Shown here one piece after another: positions 7,098 through 29,673 of a stretch of DNA of 45,032 nt. Under the pieces are notes generated by a model, which was given only the letters and a program-made list of their open reading frames with translations, was not told the origin of the DNA and made no database searches. The stretch covers positions 1 to 45,032 of the forward strand of contig PXBH01000031.1 of the NCBI GenBank assembly GCA_003565555.1, given 5' to 3'. Position numbers and translations under genes: made by a program. Source of the DNA: Cryomorphaceae bacterium. Lineage in GTDB: Bacteria > Bacteroidota > Bacteroidia > Flavobacteriales_D > Cryomorphaceae. Each line of letters opens with the position of its first letter. Position 1 is the first letter of the stretch.

Positions 7098-7733
7098 TTA
7101 AACTACCTGATGATGAACCCCTTTTTCGGCAGGCGCCTCAATAATCGAAAGGATGGATTCGAAATCCGGGCGGTTCTGAACGAAATCTATGTTCGATGTA
7201 TCGAGCAAATGGATCCTCATTTGGCCGCTTTGCTTCCGCAAAAAATCGAGGTATTGCTGCTGTAGATTATCGAGATAGTCGGGCGCTATATTCTGTTCGT
7301 ACCGCCTGCCGCGGCGCCGGATATTGCGAAGCAGTTTATCAACGGGTGCGTATAAATAGATAAGAAGATCGGGTTTGGGAATCCTGTCAAACATGATGTC
7401 AAAAAGCTGCCGGAAAAGCTTGTATTCATCGGGACCGAGGTTGGTCTTCGCGAAGATCACGGATTTACTCAGGAAGTAGTCGGAAACCGTGAGGTTTGCA
7501 AAGAGGTTCGGGCCGGCGGCGTCGGTATTGAGTTGGTGAAAGCGATCGGCGAGGAAGGAAAGTTCGAGGGGAAATGCATAGCGCTCCGGCTCGCGGTAGA
7601 ATTTCGGCAAGAAGGCATTGTCCTCGAAGCCTTCCAGCAGCAACTCGGCGCCGTAGTGCTCGGCCAGCATACGAGAAAGGGTTGTTTTTCCCGCACCTAT
7701 ATTGCCTTCGATTGCAATAAAACTATGCTCCAT
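7098..7733 (-). CDS. Deoxynucleoside kinase (HPPK-linked subfamily)
   Basis: The enzyme phosphorylates a deoxynucleoside at its 5' position in the salvage pathway. It is 211 residues. The P-loop is GNIGAGKTT at residues 10-18, and the LID-type arginine run is RRRGRRYEQNI. The Asp-Arg-Ser motif usual in the dCK/dGK family is replaced by VSDYFLSKS, unlike the second kinase at 13394. The start ATG at 7731-7733 lies inside folK, giving an 11-nt overlap with the folK stop and so probable translational coupling. An upstream in-frame start at 7778 would lie deeper in folK and adds a non-homologous basic leader. Substrate (dA, dG or other) cannot be told from this sequence. Confidence 0.88.
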   Translation of the reverse strand: MEHSFIAIEGNIGAGKTTLSRMLAEHYGAELLLEGFEDNAFLPKFYREPERYAFPLELSFLADRFHQLNTDAAGPNLFANLTVSDYFLSKSVIFAKTNLGPDEYKLFRQLFDIMFDRIPKPDLLIYLYAPVDKLLRNIRRRGRRYEQNIAPDYLDNLQQQYLDFLRKQSGQMRIHLLDTSNIDFVQNRPDFESILSIIEAPAEKGVHHQVV

Positions 7734-8235
7734 CGTATTGTTTAATTCCAAGCGCTCCTCCCGGCACCTTTTCCGCAAGGTCCCTCACTGTACTCCCGAG
7801 AACGGGGTGAACGAAATCGGGCGCAATTTCCCGCAAAGGAAAGAGCACAAAACTACGCAATTCTGCGCGGGGGTGCGGCACGATTAAATCTTCCGTTGCG
7901 ATGACCTTATCGCTGTAAAAAATAATATCAATGTCAATTTCTCGGGCGGCATAACCCGACACGGGCGAAGATTTCCCCTTCCGGCCGCAGCGCAGTTCCG
8001 TCGCTTCGGCAAACAAGCGCAAGGCTTCGGGACGGAGCTGTGTGCGGTAACTGCAAGCCATGTTCAGGTAGGGGCGGTCATCGGTGTATCCCACAGGGTC
8101 GGTTTCCCACAAGCTGCTCACTTCGACGATTTCTCCTTTTTGCGAAAGGGCGGAAAGCGCACAATCCAAATGTGCACGGCGGTCACCGAGATTGCTCCCC
8201 AAGGCGAGATAAACTTTAACAGGCGGTATCACCAT
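7723..8235 (-). CDS. folK: 6-hydroxymethyl-7,8-dihydropterin pyrophosphokinase
   Basis: HPPK transfers pyrophosphate from ATP to 6-hydroxymethyl-7,8-dihydropterin in folate synthesis. The 170-residue protein shows the family opening VYLALGSNLGDR, the middle motif VGYTDDRPYLNMA (family: P-Q-x-x-F-x-N) and the metal-binding signature REIDIDIIFY, with both catalytic aspartates present, followed by LIVPHPRAELRSFVL. Its 3' end overlaps the kinase start by 11 nt. It is divergent from sppA across 95 bp. Length and motif order are typical of the stand-alone enzyme. Confidence 0.95.
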   Translation of the reverse strand: MVIPPVKVYLALGSNLGDRRAHLDCALSALSQKGEIVEVSSLWETDPVGYTDDRPYLNMACSYRTQLRPEALRLFAEATELRCGRKGKSSPVSGYAAREIDIDIIFYSDKVIATEDLIVPHPRAELRSFVLFPLREIAPDFVHPVLGSTVRDLAEKVPGGALGIKQYDGA

Positions 8236-13367: not shown

Positions 13368-13375
13368 TACTTTTG
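13368..13375 (+). promoter_or_regulatory. Candidate -7 box for second deoxynucleoside kinase
   Basis: TACTTTTG matches TAnnTTTG fully and lies 18 bp before the chosen ATG at 13394. No TTG lies 19-20 nt upstream, so the promoter is only half supported. Confidence 0.4.
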
Positions 13376-13393
13376 ACCGATACAATCAAAATT

Positions 13394-14014
13394 ATGCATG
13401 TAGCAGTAGCAGGAAATATCGGCTCGGGAAAAACCACCCTCACGGGGCTTCTGGGAAAACATTACAAATGGGATTGTCACTATGAAGATGTGGATGAAAA
13501 CCCTTACCTCTTAGATTTTTACCGCGACATGCAGCGGTGGTCGTTCAACCTGCAGATTTACTTCCTTAACAGCAGATTTAACCAAGTCACCGAAATCCGC
13601 GAAGGAAACCGCAACGTGATCCAAGACAGGACCATCTACGAAGATGCCTTCATCTTCGCCCCTAACCTGCACAGCATGGGCCTGATGACCACAAGGGATT
13701 TTGAAAACTATTTCTCCCTCTTCAATTCAATGGAGAAATTTCTGCAACCGCCCGATCTGCTTATCTACCTCCGCGCCTCCGTACCCGCACTGGTCAATAA
13801 TATTCAGCAGCGCGGAAGGGAGTACGAAGAAGCCATAAGGTTGGACTACCTCAAGCGGCTCAATGAGCGTTACGAAGCGTGGATCTCAACCTACGACAAA
13901 GGAAAACTCCTCATCATCGATGTGGACAACAACGCCTTTCACGAAAACCCCGAAGACCTCGGCACCATCATCAGCGCCATTGAAGGAGAAATCCACGGCC
14001 TGTTTGACGTTTGA
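13394..14014 (+). CDS. Deoxynucleoside kinase, DRS-motif subfamily
   Basis: This 206-residue salvage kinase starts at MHVAVAGNIGSGKTT, with the P-loop at residues 7-15. The Asp-Arg-[ST] motif that positions substrate appears as IQDRTIYEDAF, and the LID arginines as QQRGREYEEAI. It is a paralogue of the kinase at 7098-7733; the two differ at the DRS motif, consistent with different nucleoside preference (inference). An upstream in-frame TTG at 13373 falls inside the probable -7 promoter box, so the ATG at 13394 is favoured. A terminator follows 30 bp after the stop. Confidence 0.9.
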   Translation: MHVAVAGNIGSGKTTLTGLLGKHYKWDCHYEDVDENPYLLDFYRDMQRWSFNLQIYFLNSRFNQVTEIREGNRNVIQDRTIYEDAFIFAPNLHSMGLMTTRDFENYFSLFNSMEKFLQPPDLLIYLRASVPALVNNIQQRGREYEEAIRLDYLKRLNERYEAWISTYDKGKLLIIDVDNNAFHENPEDLGTIISAIEGEIHGLFDV

Positions 14015-14104: not shown

Positions 14105-16867
14105 TTACCCGATCATCTTAAAAGAGATCATCACCTCATCATTGATCATGCGGTCGCCGAGGTCTTCAAAAAAGCGGCCCGATCCGTAGCGGATATCGTA
14201 AACGGTGCGGTCAAAGGCAAATTCTCCGGCCACCATTACGGAACCGTCGTTGTCGCGACCCACTTGATAGGTTCCCCTTACAGGCTTTTCGATTCCTTTC
14301 AGGAGCATCGTTCCGGAGAAATCATATCCGCCGGCACCGTTTATTTCAGAATTCTCAATGAGAACATAAGCGGTAGGGTGGTTTTCCACATCGAAAAAAT
14401 CTTCACTTTTCAGGTGATTGGTGAGCTTCGCATTGCTTTCTTCATCTTTCAAGTCTTCCACTGTGATCGAACCCATATCCACCATCACCTTGGCATGGGT
14501 GATCAGGTTTTCGTTCAAAGTAACTTCTCCCGTCGCATTCACATTTCCGTAGTGCCTCCCGGTCACTTTGCTGCCCATCCATCCGAAGTTTGCATTGTCG
14601 GGGCTCACCGCAAAAGCAGCTGATACCGGGGTATCGTCAGCAATCATCGCAGCATCTGCAGCGGCAGCGGAGGAGGTCCGGTCAGAGCGTATCTCAACGT
14701 TCCAAAACTCGGCGAGCAGCGGAGCAATCACCAGCCCTACGAGACAAGTGAGCTTGATCAAAATGTTCATCGAGGGGCCCGAAGTGTCTTTAAAAGGATC
14801 ACCGACAGTATCACCGGTCACGGCAGCTTTGTGGGCTTCGGAGCCTTTATAAGTCATTTCACCGTCGATCATCACGCCCGCTTCGAAGGACTTTTTGGCA
14901 TTGTCCCAAGCGCCGCCGGCATTGTTTTGGAAAATCGCCCACAGCACACCGGACACCGTTACGCCGGCCATATAAGCTCCGAGGGGCTCCATGCCCATCA
15001 GGAATCCGACAAGAATGGGTGTAACGATCGTAATGGCACCGGGAAGCATCATTTCACGGATCGCAGCACTTGTAGAAATCTCGACGCACTTGGCATATTC
15101 CGGTTTGCCCGTGCCTTCCATAATGCCGGGAATTTCTTTGAACTGTCGGCGTACTTCTTTGACCATTTCCATGGCCGCCTTACCCACGGAATTCATCGCC
15201 AGAGCCGAGAACACCACCGGGATCATCCCGCCGATAAAGAGGGCGGCGAGTACATCCGCTTTAAAAATATTGATCCCGTCGATGCCGGTAAAGGTGACAT
15301 AAGCCGCAAAAAGTGCAAGTGCCGTGAGGGCTGCGGATGCAATTGCAAATCCTTTTCCGATGGCGGCGGTGGTATTCCCCACGGAGTCGAGAATGTCTGT
15401 TTTCTCACGTACTTCCGGAGGAAGGCCGCTCATCTCCGCGATACCGCCCGCATTATCGGCAATAGGACCGAATGCGTCAATGGCAAGCTGCATGGCAGTG
15501 GTGGCCATCATGGCCGATGCCGCGATAGAAACCCCATAGAATCCCGCCAGTTCGTAAGCTCCCCAAATGGCTCCCGCAAAAAGCAGGATGGGCGCGAAAG
15601 TGGACAGCATACCCGTAGCCAATCCGGCAATTACGTTGGTAGCATGGCCCGTGCTCGACTTTTGAACGATGTCCATGACCGGCTTCTTGCCGAGGCCTGT
15701 GTAGTACTCCGTGAAGAATGAGATCGCCCCGCCCACAAAGAGTCCCACGAGCACGGCTCCGAATACGCGGATGGACGCTACGTCTTTGATCCCTTCACCG
15801 AAAAACTCCATTTGAAGTGTCTCGGGAAGGATCAGGTCGATAACGAAATAAGAGGCGATCGCCGTAAGAATGATAGATCCCCAGTTGCCCCGGTTCAGGG
15901 CAGCCTGTACCTTTGCCTCCTTGGCGTTGTCGTCTTTGATTCGGATAAACCAGGTACCGGCAATGCTGAAAAGAATACCGAGCCCCGCAATAAGCAGCGG
16001 TACCAGGATAGGGCTGATTCCGCCGAAGCCGTCATCGAGGATTGAGATGTCTTGGGCGTAGAGCATGTCGCGAATCACATAATTACCGAGCACCATGGCG
16101 GCGAGTACGGTGGCTACGTACGACCCGAAGAGGTCTGCCCCCATTCCCGCGACGTCACCCACGTTGTCACCTACGTTGTCCGCAATGGTAGCGGGGTTGC
16201 GGGGGTCATCTTCGGGAATACCGGCCTCTACCTTTCCCACCAAATCAGCGCCCACATCGGCGGCTTTGGTGTAGATTCCTCCACCCACACGGGCAAAGAG
16301 CGCGATAGACTCAGCGCCGAGTGAAAAGCCTGCGAGGGCTTCGAGTACGATGGTCATGTCGTCATAGCCCTTTACCCCTGTCCACTCGCTTCCCATAAAC
16401 CAACCGAAGAGAATAATGAAAAGGATACTGAGACCGAATACGGCCAAGCCGGCTACACCGAGCCCCATTACGGTACCTCCGGAAAAGGAGACGTCGAGCG
16501 CCTTCTTCAACCCCGTTCGGGCAGCTTGGGTCGTTCGCACATTTGCCGCAGTAGCGATGCGCATACCGAGATTTCCGGCAACGGCGCTAAAGGTAGCTCC
16601 GATCACAAAGGCTACTACGATGAACCAATGAGAGTGCGGAACCAAAAAAGAAATCAATCCGAGCAAAGCACCCGCAACGGCCACAAAAATGGCGAGCACG
16701 CGGTACTCTGCGGCCAAAAAGGCCAGAGCCCCTTCGCGAATGTGTGCGGCCAAGCCGCTCATTTTTTCGTCGCCTGCATCTTGGGCATTCACCCATTTTG
16801 CTTTGAAGGCCATCACCATAAGGCCGATCAGGGCCATAAGAGGTACGATGTAGAGAATAGTAGTCAT
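14105..16867 (-). CDS. hppA: Membrane-bound pyrophosphatase with C-terminal YceI domain
   Basis: Membrane pyrophosphatases couple PPi hydrolysis to H+ and/or Na+ export. Residues 1-720 are a complete pump: [11 protein letters not shown] (204-214), DNVGDNVGD (230-238), [12 protein letters not shown] (464-475), [12 protein letters not shown] and the final [25 protein letters not shown] (497-506) has Ala501 and Gly504 at the positions that mark K+-dependent enzymes. After an Ala-rich linker (about 725-750), residues 751-920 match Yce[43 protein letters not shown] and [15 protein letters not shown]. YceI proteins are normally separate periplasmic, lipid-binding lipocalin-like proteins. Because M-PPases have an extracytoplasmic C-terminus, the extra domain should sit in the periplasm. 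H+ versus Na+ specificity is not assigned. A candidate promoter lies at 16908-16915. Confidence 0.93.
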
Positions 16868-24424: not shown

Positions 24425-26926
24425 ATGAGACACCTTCTGTGGGCACTTGCTGCGCTGCTTACCCTTAACGCACATCACAGTGAAGCGCAATTTCCGGCCT
24501 CCTACACCTCATCGGAAATTCTCCACGACCTCCGGAAAGCAGAAAAGACCGGCACTGTGATGTACATCGCCGCCCACCCGGATGATGAAAACACGCGGCT
24601 AATCTCGTATTTCGTAAACCGTATGCACGCCCGCACAGTCTACCTTTCCCTCACCCGCGGCGACGGCGGCCAAAACCTCATCGGTACGGAAACCGGCGCG
24701 GCCATGGGCGTTTTGAGAACCCAAGAGCTTCTGGAAGCCAGAAAAATTGACGGAGGCGAGCAATGGTTTACCCGGGCAGTGGACTTCGGCTACTCCAAAT
24801 CGTCACTCGAAACCTTAGATAAATGGGACCGAGACACCATTCTGCACGATGTGGTGCGCGCTATACGGAAGTTCAGGCCCGACGTTTTGGTGACCCGTTT
24901 TCCTCCGAACAATTACGCGGGCCACGGCCATCACGAAGCCAGCGCCCTGCTAGCAGAGGAAGCCTTCGAAGCTGCCGGAGATCCGAATCAATTTCCCGAA
25001 CAGGGGCTCGACCCGTGGCAGCCCGAGCGGCTTTACTTCAATGCCAGCACCTGGTGGAATAAGGATTTGCCCCAAAGGGCCCGTGACAACGACAATTTTG
25101 TGCGCGTGAATGTGGGAGACTACAATCCGCTGCAGGGGGAAACCTATGCACGTATTGCCGCGAGAAGCCGCAGTTGCCACAAAAGCCAGGGATTCGGAAC
25201 CGACGTGTATTACGGGCTCAACATCGAGTACATGGAATACGTAATGGGATCGAAGGCACGCTCGCGCGATGACATTCTCGAAGGAATTGACTGCTCATGG
25301 AAGCGCCTCGGCGCGGAGAAGGCAGGGGAAATGCTCAGTGAAGCCGTCCGACGCTATGACCACCACGCACCTGAAAACTCCGTACCCTATCTGGCCGATG
25401 CCCTCGACGCCCTGAAAAAAGCCCCGGCTTCTTCTCTGAAAGAATACAAAATCAAAGAGCTGGAAGCCCTCATCGTCAAAGCTGCGGGAATATACGCGGA
25501 AGCCATATCCGGCGTGCCCTACTATACGCCCGGCGATGATGCGTACGTACAAGTGAACATCGTGCATCAGCACCGACGACCATTGAATGTGCGAAAGATT
25601 AAAGGCGGAGCAGACGCAGCACCTGAACACGCCCGCATTTCCCGAGGTGAATTTTTCACGGAAGAAATAAGGATCGCTATTCCGGAAGACGCTCCGCCGA
25701 GCAACCCCTACTGGCTCAACGGGCCGTACGAATATCTTTTCGAAATGCCCGAAAAGGAACTCATAGGCCGCCCCGAAAACCCTCCGGCACTCTCTGCGGA
25801 AGTGCACTTGGAAATTGAGGGGATTGAATTGAAGATGAAACTGCCCGTGGTACACAAAATCGCCGATCCCGTAAAAGCGGTGATCTATCGCCCCACGGAG
25901 ATCCTTCCGCCGGTCACCTTCAGATTTTCCGAAGATGTGGTGCTCAGCACGAACGGCTCCGAACAGGAGGTCACGCTTTTCCTTACAAACCACAAAAATG
26001 AGGCTTCGGGGACCGTGGTTCTCGACCTTCCGCCCGGGCACGAAGTCACTCCTGCCTCTGTGCGATATACCTCTGATAAAAAAGGGAATACGGATCGCAT
26101 CGTTTTTACCGTGAAAGGGGGACCCGGAGCGGAGAGCGGTCAGGTAAAAGCCGGGTACACCCCTGACGCCGGACCTGCTTTTGACGAATGTCTCTCCCTG
26201 CGTGAAATCAGCTATGACCATATCTATGACCAAATAATGCTCAGCCCCGCAGAGATACGGCTGCAATCCTTCACGCTCGACCGGGGCAATGTGGCGCGAA
26301 TCGGATACATCGAAGGTCCCGGAGATGATGTGGCCAAATACCTGCGTGCGGCCGGGTTTCAGGTAGACATCATCGACGAGGAAACCATCCTATCGGAAAA
26401 ATTGTCGGATTATGATGCCGTAGTTACCGGCATTCGCGCCTTCAACACCCGAGAGGATCTGGCCTACCTGAACGCAAAGCTGAACGCTTACGTAGAAGCG
26501 GGCGGCACATGGTTGGTGCAATACAATACTTCTCATCGGTTGAAATCAGAGGAAATCGGACCCTTTCCTTTCAAGATCGGACGGGAGCGGGTTACCGATG
26601 AAGAAGCCCCGCCCACACTGCTATTACCCGACCACCCCGCATTCAACCGGCCAAACCGATTGGATCCCGCTGATTTTGAAGGGTGGGCACAGGAGCGGGG
26701 ACTTTACTTCGCCGAGACATGGGATGACCGTTTCGAACCGCTGATCAGCTGGCACGATCCGGATGAGCCGCCGCGAGACGGGGGCTTGATCGTAGCACCC
26801 CACGGTAAAGGGTACTTTATTTATTCGGGGATTTCCTTTTTCAGGCAATTGCCGGCCGGCGTACCGGGAGCATACCGCCTGATGTCGAATTTACTCAACC
26901 TCATGCCAAACGGAAATAAACCTTGA
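24425..26926 (+). CDS. Secreted PIG-L/LmbE-family deacetylase-like protein
   Basis: The 833-residue exported protein begins with a signal peptide (cleavage near HSEAQ). Residues about 44-200 are a PIG-L/LmbE domain, zinc enzymes that remove N-acetyl groups from sugar conjugates: AAHPDDENTRL holds the metal-binding His51 and Asp54 with catalytic Asp53, and GHGHHEAS (167-) supplies the second histidine pair. A middle beta-rich region follows (about 400-610). From about 620 to the end is a Rossmann-like region (VAKYLRAAGFQVDII, YDAVVTGIRAFNTR, VEAGGTWLVQYN) resembling class I glutamine amidotransferase/ThuA folds without an obvious catalytic Cys. The start at 24425 is set by the signal peptide. 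Its TGA overlaps the next ATG by one base. Confidence 0.85.
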   Translation: MRHLLWALAALLTLNAHHSEAQFPASYTSSEILHDLRKAEKTGTVMYIAAHPDDENTRLISYFVNRMHARTVYLSLTRGDGGQNLIGTETGAAMGVLRTQELLEARKIDGGEQWFTRAVDFGYSKSSLETLDKWDRDTILHDVVRAIRKFRPDVLVTRFPPNNYAGHGHHEASALLAEEAFEAAGDPNQFPEQGLDPWQPERLYFNASTWWNKDLPQRARDNDNFVRVNVGDYNPLQGETYARIAARSRSCHKSQGFGTDVYYGLNIEYMEYVMGSKARSRDDILEGIDCSWKRLGAEKAGEMLSEAVRRYDHHAPENSVPYLADALDALKKAPASSLKEYKIKELEALIVKAAGIYAEAISGVPYYTPGDDAYVQVNIVHQHRRPLNVRKIKGGADAAPEHARISRGEFFTEEIRIAIPEDAPPSNPYWLNGPYEYLFEMPEKELIGRPENPPALSAEVHLEIEGIELKMKLPVVHKIADPVKAVIYRPTEILPPVTFRFSEDVVLSTNGSEQEVTLFLTNHKNEASGTVVLDLPPGHEVTPASVRYTSDKKGNTDRIVFTVKGGPGAESGQVKAGYTPDAGPAFDECLSLREISYDHIYDQIMLSPAEIRLQSFTLDRGNVARIGYIEGPGDDVAKYLRAAGFQVDIIDEETILSEKLSDYDAVVTGIRAFNTREDLAYLNAKLNAYVEAGGTWLVQYNTSHRLKSEEIGPFPFKIGRERVTDEEAPPTLLLPDHPAFNRPNRLDPADFEGWAQERGLYFAETWDDRFEPLISWHDPDEPPRDGGLIVAPHGKGYFIYSGISFFRQLPAGVPGAYRLMSNLLNLMPNGNKP

Positions 26927-27063
26927 TGCAGCCCGAAAATTCCAAATCGGACGCGCCTGAATCCGAGCAGAATACCAACTGGCCCCGTGTCTACGCGAGT
27001 GTTTTTGTCTGGCTGGCCCTCATGTGCCTGCTCATGTATTACTTTACCCGAGCTACCCAATGA
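26926..27063 (+). CDS. 45-residue single-span membrane protein
   Basis: A short frame fills the space between the PIG-L-like gene and the symporter. It starts at an ATG sharing one base with the upstream stop (TGATG) and its TGA overlaps the symporter start (ATGA). The product has a polar, acidic N-terminal half (SDAPESEQNTNWPRVY) and one membrane helix (ASVFVWLALMCLLMYYF), ending FTRATQ. Double overlap with real genes and the clean amphipathic layout argue strongly for translation. Small one- or two-span partners encoded just before SSS-family transporters are known elsewhere (DUF485 YjcH with ActP, DUF997 YhdT with PanF); a similar role is an inference. Confidence 0.78.
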   Translation: MQPENSKSDAPESEQNTNWPRVYASVFVWLALMCLLMYYFTRATQ

Positions 27064-28754
27064 CGGTTACGGATTATGCGGTCATGGCGGCTACCCTACT
27101 CCTCATTGTGGGGTACGGTACCTGGAAAACAAGAAAATCCGGCAATATCGAAGGCTATCTCTTGGGCGACAAGCAGCTCAAGTGGGGAACGATCGGACTT
27201 TCCGTTATGGCCACACAGGCCAGTGCCATTACTTTTTTGAGCACCCCGGGGTTGGCTTACGAGTCGGGCATGGCCTTCGTACAGAATTATCTCGGCCTGC
27301 CCATAGCGCTGGTGGTGGTGTGTGCGGTATTCATTCCCATTTACTACCGCTTAAAGGTTTACACCGCCTATGAATACCTGGAGCAGCGTTTTGATCTGAA
27401 GACCCGACTGTTTGCAGCTTTTATTTTCCTGGTGCAGCGCGGATTGGCAGCAGGTATTACCATTTATGCTCCGGCCATCGTTTTGTCGTCCGTTTTGAAA
27501 TGGAACCTGACACTGACCATCCTCGTGGTCGGAATTCTCGTGATTATTTACACGGTATCCGGCGGAACAAAAGCGGTAAGCCTTACACAAAAATGGCAAA
27601 TGACCGTGATCCTCATCGGCATGGCCGTTGCCTTCACCACTGTATTGATGAATCTACCGGAGCAAGTGTCCTTCACGGACGCGCTCGGGCTGGCGGGAAA
27701 ATCGGGAAAAACAGGGGCGATCAACTTCGACTTCGATCTCAGCGAACGCTACACCTTTTGGTCCGGTATCACGGGGGGATTTTTCCTTGCATTGGCATAC
27801 TTCGGCACCGATCAATCGCAGGTGCAGCGCTACATTGGCGGCAAATCTGTACGAGAGAGCAGGATGGGCCTGATGTTCAATGCAGTTTTAAAAATACCCA
27901 TGCAGTTTTTCATCCTCTTGCTCGGGGTCATGGTCTTTGTTTTTTACCAATTCGAACCGCATGATGTACTCTTCGATACCGCCTCAACAGAACTCATGGA
28001 AAGCAGCGGTTCGGCAGATGAGTTTGAAAACATCAGAAGCCTTCACGCTGAGAACCACGCCCTGAAAAAGGAGGCCACCCTCGCCCTTCATGCGGCAGTG
28101 AATGCAAATGACCCTGCAGCTGCGGAAACACACACCCTTGAGATGCGGGCGCTGCAAGAAGAGGCTACCTCATTGAGAAATGAGGCCAAAGCACTGGTGA
28201 TCCGAGAATTTCCCGGAAATACCGGCAGGGACTCTGACTATGTTTTTATCAGCTACGTGCTCGCCTACATGCCCACGGGGCTCATCGGGCTGCTTCTGGC
28301 TGTAATCCTGTCCGCCGCTATGTCGAGCACTGCGGGAGAACTTAATGCCTTGGGCTCCACAGCGTCTGTCGATTTTTACAAAAGACTGATCAAACCTGAG
28401 GCAAGCGAAAAACATTACGTCATTGCATCAAAGCTTTTGACGGCATTTTGGGGCTTGACGGCCCTGGGATTTGCGCTCACGGCTGACCTGTTTGAAAATT
28501 TGATTGAAGCCGTCAATATTTTGGGCAGCATATTCTACGGTACCGTATTGGGCATCTTTATGACGGCATTTTTCATCAAGCGCGCTGCGGGCCGGGTTGT
28601 TTTCATCTCAGCAGTAATTGCCCAAAGTGCGGTGCTCTTCATTTTCGTGTTCAGGTCAGATGACATTTCGTATCTGCTCTACAATGTCATCGGATGCGGC
28701 ACGGTCATGGTGCTGTCTGCGGCAGTTTCTCTTTTTTCCCGGGGGAAAAATTAA
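27060..28754 (+). CDS. Sodium:solute symporter (SSS family)
   Basis: The 564-residue transporter starts at MTVTDYAVMAATLL; the ATG overlaps the stop of the 45-aa gene. SSS features are YLLGDKQLKWGTIGLSVMATQASAITFL (given here as its parts LLGDKQLKWG and SVMATQASAITF), YEYLEQRFDLKTR, YTVSGGTKAVSLTQKWQ and FGTDQSQVQRYIGGKS. About thirteen membrane spans are visible. An unusual hydrophilic, Glu/Ala-rich helical stretch at residues about 305-385 (HALKKEATLALHAAV, MRALQEEATSLRNEA) interrupts the helices. The substrate is unknown; the upstream PIG-L-like protein suggests a sugar-derived compound. Confidence 0.9.
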   Translation: MTVTDYAVMAATLLLIVGYGTWKTRKSGNIEGYLLGDKQLKWGTIGLSVMATQASAITFLSTPGLAYESGMAFVQNYLGLPIALVVVCAVFIPIYYRLKVYTAYEYLEQRFDLKTRLFAAFIFLVQRGLAAGITIYAPAIVLSSVLKWNLTLTILVVGILVIIYTVSGGTKAVSLTQKWQMTVILIGMAVAFTTVLMNLPEQVSFTDALGLAGKSGKTGAINFDFDLSERYTFWSGITGGFFLALAYFGTDQSQVQRYIGGKSVRESRMGLMFNAVLKIPMQFFILLLGVMVFVFYQFEPHDVLFDTASTELMESSGSADEFENIRSLHAENHALKKEATLALHAAVNANDPAAAETHTLEMRALQEEATSLRNEAKALVIREFPGNTGRDSDYVFISYVLAYMPTGLIGLLLAVILSAAMSSTAGELNALGSTASVDFYKRLIKPEASEKHYVIASKLLTAFWGLTALGFALTADLFENLIEAVNILGSIFYGTVLGIFMTAFFIKRAAGRVVFISAVIAQSAVLFIFVFRSDDISYLLYNVIGCGTVMVLSAAVSLFSRGKN

Positions 28755-28833: not shown

Positions 28834-29673
28834 TTACATCTTATTGATTTTCTCCAGGAGTTTCTCGTTGAATTCCATGTAGGTTCTGTTTCCCTCGCCT
28901 TTTGCCATACGGAGGGCAAGCTCTGCTGTTTTCTTGGCGTTTTTCTTGTCCCCGTTTGCGTGGTAGGCCCGCGCCAAGGTATATGTATTCCAGTAAGCTT
29001 CCTTCGCCTCCACTGATTTCATCGCCCATTCCAGCGCTTTCTTTTCGTCAAGCTTGTTGTCGAGGTAATAGCCGGCGGCCTGATTGTACACCCCTTGGCT
29101 GTTCTCAATTTTGGAAATTTCTGTAGATATACGCTCCATCGCCAACTCTCTGGCGCTTGCTTTTACAGGCAATCTGAACGCGTGCCGGCCCCATGCCCAT
29201 ACCAGGTCAGCAGACTCGGGCATAACATTCTCGAAGGTAAATCGCATGGACTCCACCTGATTGCGGGATTCTTCCAGTCTCACTTCTGTACGTGCGGCTA
29301 CTTTTCCTTCGTCATAGCTTCCGGTGCCCCACAGCTCTGTGTCGTTGTTGAAGATCAACATGATAGACTGTTCCGTGGGAAGGGTGAAAACAGAGTACTC
29401 CCCGGCACGCAAGTCTACACCGTTAATGTTCACATCCGAACTGAATGAAATCTTGGTGGCTTTATTGGCACCGGTGCGCCAAAGCTCACCGAACGGTATG
29501 AGGTCTCCGAACAGTTGTCGGTCTTTAGCCGCGGGGCGGCTGTATTCGATTTCTATCTCAGTAAGGCCTACCATTTGATAGACTTTGGCCTTAGGGCTGG
29601 ATACGGGGACCATTTGTGCCTGTGCGGAGAGCAATCCGCCGATAAAAAGTGTAGAAAGGATGTATTTCTTCAT
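28834..29673 (-). CDS. DUF2911 exported protein with C-terminal helical repeats
   Basis: The 279-residue protein has a signal peptide (cleavage near SAQAQ). Residues about 25-170 are a DUF2911 domain (IEIEYSRPAAKDRQLFGDLIPFGELWRTGAN read as its parts EYSRPAAKDR, FGELWRTGANKAT, and GEYSVFTLP). The C-terminal third has TPR-like helices (ALEWAMKSVEAKEAYWN, NAKKTAELALRMAKGEG). DUF2911 is widespread in Bacteroidota with unknown role. It starts only 19 bp after the clpX stop on the same strand, so it may be read through from the tig-clpP-clpX transcript. Confidence 0.85.
   Translation of the reverse strand: MKKYILSTLFIGGLLSAQAQMVPVSSPKAKVYQMVGLTEIEIEYSRPAAKDRQLFGDLIPFGELWRTGANKATKISFSSDVNINGVDLRAGEYSVFTLPTEQSIMLIFNNDTELWGTGSYDEGKVAARTEVRLEESRNQVESMRFTFENVMPESADLVWAWGRHAFRLPVKASARELAMERISTEISKIENSQGVYNQAAGYYLDNKLDEKKALEWAMKSVEAKEAYWNTYTLARAYHANGDKKNAKKTAELALRMAKGEGNRTYMEFNEKLLEKINKM

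Follow-up and report, generated by a model that had tools for sequence, protein, structure and literature searches.

A conserved single-helix protein, candidate subunit of an SSS-family symporter, in a gene block linked to bacillithiol genes

The DNA considered here, a window of 45,032 nucleotides from a Cryomorphaceae bacterium (GenBank assembly GCA_003565555.1, contig PXBH01000031.1, positions 1 to 45,032 of the forward strand), contains a block of three genes that encode a secreted PIG-L (LmbE-like) hydrolase, a protein of only 45 amino acids with a single helix (MQPENSKSDAPESEQNTNWPRVYASVFVWLALMCLLMYYFTRATQ) and a Na+/solute symporter of the sodium/solute symporter (SSS) family. The genes are joined by TGATG and ATGA stop-start overlaps, with coordinates and junctions (Table 1) as described in an initial annotation made from the sequence alone. 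The small frame proves to be a genuine gene, conserved in three phyla (Bacteroidota, Myxococcota and Verrucomicrobiota), and is best read as encoding an accessory subunit dedicated to a single orthologous lineage of SSS transporters. Outside the Bacteroidota, the block is found among the bsh genes for synthesis of bacillithiol, an antioxidant thiol.

Table 1. Positions in the window of the block, its motifs and its convergent neighbour
Feature	Position	Strand	Remarks
Secreted PIG-L (LmbE-like) hydrolase, 833 aa	24425..26926	+	ATG at 24425, stop TGA at 26924-26926; translation
Likely signal peptide of PIG-L protein, MRHLLWALAALLTLNAHHSEAQ	24425..24490	+	Read from sequence
HxDD metal/catalytic motif AHPDDE	24572..24589	+	Residues 50-55 of PIG-L protein
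Second metal-site motif GHGHHE	24920..24937	+	Residues 166-171 of PIG-L protein; aligned to MshB
TGATG stop-start overlap, PIG-L/small gene	26924..26928	+	One shared base
45-aa single-helix protein	26926..27063	+	ATG at 26926-26928, stop at 27061-27063
ATGA stop-start overlap, small gene/SSS	27060..27063	+	
SSS-family Na+/solute symporter, 564 aa	27060..28754	+	13 transmembrane helices; ATG at 27060-27062, last base of stop at 28754
R127 of symporter (TM3)	27438..27440	+	Invariant in 211/211 orthologues
D251 of symporter	27810..27812	+	Invariant in 211/211 orthologues
Helical hairpin insertion between TM7 and TM8	28014..28208	+	Residues 319-383; AlphaFold model, pLDDT 75-96
Secreted DUF2911 protein	28834..29673	-	Convergent neighbour of block; Pfam DUF2911 E=3.3e-47

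The small gene and its tie to one symporter lineage

Among 60 relatives of the window's genome, the symporter and the PIG-L protein were each found in 32, in nearly the same genomes and with the genes adjacent. The initial annotation had proposed that the gaps before SSS genes be translated in related genomes, and this revealed a frame of 32-47 amino acids with one hydrophobic helix at 28 of the 29 intact PIG-L/SSS junctions, with the ATGA overlap present at 25 of the 28. When all symporter orthologues were fetched, 173 of 180 loci were found to be preceded by a small frame; here the ATGA overlap is retained in 81 of the 173, and in the remainder the stop lies mostly a few bases ahead of the symporter. 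The conserved pair of the 45-residue protein consists of Trp19 and Tyr23, the former nearly invariant and the latter invariant among the small frames of relatives, and its helix spans approximately residues 23-42. In 160 of 167 distinct sequences, the stretch that starts at the Trp and runs to the end is 26-28 residues long. The predicted pattern was NW-x-R-V-Y followed by one helix; the exact motif is only local, and the general form is W-[KR]-x2-Y, again followed by one helix. Because the detector of small frames itself seeks an aromatic pair, random windows from the same loci served as a control: W-x3-Y placed 25-30 residues before the end occurs at 168 of the 173 real sites and in none of 3093 random windows. 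Nonsynonymous divergence (dN) in close pairs of the small gene is 0.18-0.33, against a synonymous divergence (dS) of 0.55-1.67. Junction conservation, the comparison with control windows and dN below dS together establish the frame as a real gene that evolves as a protein under purifying selection, the opposite of the unconserved or non-protein-like frame that, according to the initial annotation, would have spoken against it.

Lys or Arg residues sit on the N-terminal side of the helix in 163 of the 167 small proteins, and the N terminus is therefore probably cytoplasmic and the C terminus outside. No family in the copies of the Pfam and NCBIfam libraries that were searched matches the 45-residue protein. 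A resemblance to NDUF_B8 that stays under the cut-off (Pfam E=0.027) and sporadic weak matches of homologues of the 45-residue protein (Gemini_mov, Ycf70, DUF6480, DUF5964) were rejected as chance.

The association of the small protein with this particular symporter is close. Although each genome has several SSS candidates, a single place is picked out by a profile of the small protein in nearly all of the Bacteroidota genomes that it matches, and at nearly all of the 30 best places a symporter of this lineage lies directly downstream. Hidden Markov model (HMM) searches of 296 genomes of the phylum found both proteins in 87, the small protein only in 3 and the SSS protein only in 27 (Fisher 2e-46), the last figure being affected by the failure of the HMM to detect divergent small frames that are seen by reading the junctions. 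Two of the three small-only cases are chance matches inside larger proteins, and the third genome has only a deletion remnant of the SSS gene. At locus L281 (2927-3240), the PIG-L and small genes are intact and the symporter has been reduced by a large internal deletion to a remnant that matches residues 1-23 and about 506-544 only.

The pair is also kept where PIG-L lies elsewhere or is missing. Small gene and symporter persist without an adjacent PIG-L orthologue at L097, L108, L112-L115, L200, L201, L209 and L216, and Balneola-like genomes retain both with no full PIG-L orthologue detected. In some genomes the small and SSS genes have lost their linkage, though both are still present (Balneola-like L279, L280 and L283; L282; G332). 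At L279, L280 and L283, the small gene stands at its old place beside GltX and a WbqC-like gene, with the symporter 14-17 kb off and a DASS-type transporter now adjoining the small gene. A search for Rosetta-stone fusions gave no natural small-SSS fusion, the apparent matches in large frames falling in unrelated proteins. Taken together, the genetics favour the new accessory subunit first suggested by the initial annotation: the small protein is conserved, keeps company with a single SSS lineage and would be a partner of its symporter.

Small membrane proteins encoded just before an SSS gene have precedents in YjcH (DUF485)-ActP, YhdT (DUF997)-PanF and the TIGR03647/DUF4212 (VC_2705) type. Those partners are proteins of 80-110 amino acids with two helices. 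The DUF4212/TIGR03647, DUF485 and DUF997 profiles match neither the window protein (E<=1) nor any of 28 homologues (E<=0.01); a relationship to YjcH or YhdT, which had served as models for the original suggestion, is not supported, and the likeness serves as a lead. In form, the small protein resembles MAP17 (PDZK1IP1), the single-helix partner of human SGLT2, which packs on TM13 of the transporter and helps its expression and stability (PMC10803289); MAP17 demonstrates that one helix is enough to assist an SSS protein. No sequence relation to MAP17 was found, and the contact helix TM13 is apparently lacking in this 13-helix symporter; the likeness is one of analogy and not of membership.

The symporter, the hydrolase and their surroundings

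The symporter belongs to the SSS family on the strength of both profile and fold. It matches Pfam SSF (PF00474) with E=2e-39 (136.1 bits against a cut-off of 22.8) and TIGR00813 with 235 bits (cut-off 184), and its AlphaFold (AF2) model, with 13 helices and a predicted local distance difference test (pLDDT) score of 84.7, has the LeuT/SSS fold, the best PDB folds being SGLT2-MAP17 and the sialic-acid carrier SiaT (SiaT TMt 0.90). Na+ coupling fits this fold and the Na2-site serines that are shared with SiaT, vSGLT and SGLT and mostly kept among orthologues (S422 in 192 and S423 in 197 of 211); a lysine of this symporter also aligns with a TM7 lysine of vSGLT. It differs from these transporters in its helical hairpin insert, which we infer to be probably extracytoplasmic, in its invariant R127 and in its invariant D251, the aligned position being Asn in vSGLT, NIS, SMCT1 and SMVT. 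R127, D251, Q254, R257 and K278 are all unvarying across the 211 orthologues, and the combination of the acid at 251 with the TM3 arginine would accommodate a substrate that carries an amine together with carboxylates, such as glucosamine-malate. In a tree of the SSS proteins, which contains some loci twice, has low supports and is indicative only, the Myxococcota and one deltaproteobacterial locus cluster together and the Verrucomicrobiota are interleaved with some Bacteroidota. Two Polaribacter symporters (L250 and L264) have an extra C-terminal extension with hydrophobic segments that has no counterpart in most orthologues.

LmbE-like enzymes carry an H-x-D-D motif plus a His (PMC4101496). 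The 833-residue protein has both, together with a PIG-L domain above cut-off (Pfam E=4.8e-15, 56.6 bits against 28.2), and is a member of this superfamily. A ThuA-like C-terminal region remains below threshold (Pfam ThuA E=0.04). Hydrophobic N-terminal segments recur in the PIG-L orthologues of other phyla, and a secretion-type N terminus is present in most orthologues. The best NCBIfam match is the mycothiol conjugate amidase Mca (TIGR03446, E=1.3e-14). Like Mca, Bca and BshB, the protein combines the PIG-L (LmbE) domain with metal motifs; unlike them it is secreted, is 833 residues long with extra domains and falls far below the curated cut-offs, and its GHGHHE motif lacks the Arg, adjacent to the His, on which BshB relies for its substrate. 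It is not classed as an Mca but may work like Mca or Bca.

In about half of 80 named loci, a gene for a DUF2911 protein is found no more than 5 kb from the block. It is convergent with the block here, as it is in many Bacteroidota, and co-directional upstream in others. When recurrent neighbours were sought at 88 loci, DUF2911 was the sole frequent partner in the Bacteroidota, and other repeats looked lineage-bound. Elsewhere in the window, reading by eye gave a membrane pyrophosphatase frame of 920 amino acids (14105-16867, minus strand) that runs into a YceI-like C-terminal domain with no intervening stop, an apparent HppA-YceI fusion, and two deoxynucleoside-kinase-like genes (7098-7778, minus strand; 13373-14014, plus strand).

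Bacillithiol genes beside the block

The initial annotation mentioned neither the conserved DUF2911 neighbour nor the link to bsh genes that becomes evident outside the Bacteroidota. A scan of named genomes turned up loci in Verrucomicrobiota, a Myxococcus and a deltaproteobacterium, with bshB1 and bshA in several of the flanks, and the symporter is present in 18 of 289 Verrucomicrobiota and 65 of 193 Myxococcota genomes searched. At 43 non-Bacteroidota loci, bshA, bshB1 or bshC lies within about 7 kb in 39, and the small frame is present in 39, PIG-L in 40 and DUF2911 in 33; two of the four loci devoid of bsh genes are cut by contig ends (L360, L376). By curated equivalog models, BshA and BshC are above cut-off, and BshB1 is above it in L215 and below it in L203. 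The arrangement takes several forms: DUF2911-bshC-bshA-PIGL-small-SSS, bshA-bshB1-bshC divergent from PIGL-small-SSS, DUF2911-PIGL-small-SSS-bshB1-bshA and bshB1-bshA-PIGL-small-SSS. The groups differ in gene order; the association has therefore survived rearrangement, and the block is genetically linked to bsh genes beyond shared descent. In 13 Myxococcota genomes with bshA and/or bshC beside the block (G773, G797, G713, G827 and others), no BshB1 was detected at E<=1e-15, BshB2 lying outside the search.

A possible route for bacillithiol recovery

Our preferred reading, to which we give a probability of about one-half, is that the small protein is a dedicated subunit of the symporter and that the block constitutes an extracytoplasmic, bacillithiol-linked module for hydrolysis and Na+-coupled re-uptake of a product. 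The secreted PIG-L protein would act beyond the cytoplasm, hydrolysing bacillithiol or its S-conjugates much as the cytosolic Mca and Bca do inside, and the symporter with its small subunit would import a product, most likely glucosamine-malate, for reuse. Bca, itself a PIG-L enzyme, is known to cleave conjugates of bacillithiol, which presumably allows GlcN-malate to be used again (PMC4101496), and recycling of this kind would be analogous to that of the glutathione/gamma-glutamyl cycle. An extracytoplasmic amidase with recovery of the fragment is favoured because it needs the fewest assumptions to account for secretion signal, PIG-L chemistry, symporter and bsh linkage alike; we infer binding of the small protein to the symporter, action of PIG-L on bacillithiol, and the import, direction and identity of the product. 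The idea of the initial annotation, a secreted deacetylase-like protein coupled to import of its product, is supported in outline, with PIG-L as the secreted hydrolase and Na+ as the driving ion of import. The substrate is refined from a generic acetylated sugar to bacillithiol or its conjugates, since the bsh linkage outside the Bacteroidota points to a specific sugar-thiol.

Several observations weigh against this interpretation. Among the 296 genomes, all that carry the SSS gene have bshC, and the genome of the window has it too, but bshC occurs in 291 of these Bacteroidota genomes, so that co-occurrence there offers no contrast; BshC was dropped as a phylogenetic contrast in this phylum because it is nearly universal. 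Within the Bacteroidota no bsh gene recurs near the block, and some block-bearing metagenome-assembled genomes of Verrucomicrobiota have no detectable bshC. The PIG-L protein scores below the equivalog cut-offs of both Mca (TIGR03446, 54.5 against 277.15 bits) and BshB1 (TIGR04001, 22.5 against 182.5 bits). Several lineages have lost the small gene and kept the SSS gene (L060, L138, L238, L189 and relatives, L190), and the small protein is therefore not strictly required by the symporter. In an AF2 model in which the stop of the small gene of the relative L058 was read through into the in-frame SSS gene, made with 29 other such read-throughs, the small helix is formed (pLDDT about 60-65) but is not confidently placed. 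Mutual information with average product correction on 167 small-SSS pairs (effective number 114) is dominated by phylogeny, the top pairs lying in the variable hairpin and at clade-specific positions, and was therefore set aside.

The block could instead be a broader system for scavenging nutrients, along the lines of the initial annotation, with N-acylated amino sugars or conjugates of sugars as its substrates and with a bsh neighbourhood that reflects only a shared precursor or a historical link. PIG-L enzymes do act on GlcNAc conjugates, the symporter resembles sugar and sialic-acid carriers, and in the distant family represented by L195 (2505-4284) a secreted PIG-L of approximately 300 amino acids and a glucosamine-6-phosphate isomerase-like gene stand divergent from the small and SSS genes, possibly an amino-sugar variant of the system. 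We nevertheless consider general scavenging unlikely: the 39 of 43 non-Bacteroidota loci that sit with bacillithiol genes do so in several arrangements, and among the frequent neighbours of the block at 88 loci there was no conspicuous SusCD, glycosidase or sugar kinase. A little less likely again is that the small protein is no subunit of the symporter: PIG-L or DUF2911 could be what it anchors or regulates, or its target could be another membrane protein. Its gene is translationally coupled to that of PIG-L too, and is separable from the SSS gene (L279, L280, L283), but it stays with SSS where PIG-L is absent or far, and the Balneola-like genomes described above retain small and SSS genes with no full PIG-L orthologue detected.

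The Myxococcota genomes in which BshB1 went undetected raise another possibility, namely that in some hosts PIG-L replaces BshB as the GlcNAc-malate deacetylase of bacillithiol synthesis. This is improbable given that the pathway is cytosolic, whereas most PIG-L orthologues have a secretion-type N terminus, and that BshB1 and this PIG-L occur together in one cluster in L374, L377 and L378. Finally, the stop-start overlaps on both sides of the small frame in many loci could mean that it mainly couples translation of PIG-L and SSS, the peptide itself having no function. Residue-level conservation, dN/dS below 1 and persistence of the frame when it is unlinked, or up to 191 bases from SSS, make this very improbable indeed.

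The preferred reading of a subunit-bearing, bacillithiol-linked module can be extended, more tentatively, to a complete and widespread salvage cycle of Gram-negative bacteria, in which bacillithiol or its conjugates would be exported and split outside by the PIG-L amidase with DUF2911, and glucosamine-malate re-imported by an SSS transporter that needs a single-helix subunit of 35-55 amino acids. We regard such a cycle as possible rather than probable. No uptake or extracytoplasmic recycling route for bacillithiol is described in the literature searched, and the literature searched on bacillithiol and DUF2911/DUF4212 holds no description of this block. The findings amount to a small-protein family unmatched in the searched copies of Pfam and NCBIfam, together with a gene set that is linked to bacillithiol and built from known families; the block provides four concrete candidate genes across many Bacteroidota, Myxococcota and Verrucomicrobiota. 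Derivatives of bacillithiol have been described as the bacterial thiols of widest occurrence (PMC6282198). If the salvage cycle exists, bacillithiol would have its own counterpart of the gamma-glutamyl cycle, and this symporter lineage its first substrate. The small protein adds a conserved single-helix candidate subunit to a transporter superfamily that includes SGLT2 and for which few such partners are known.

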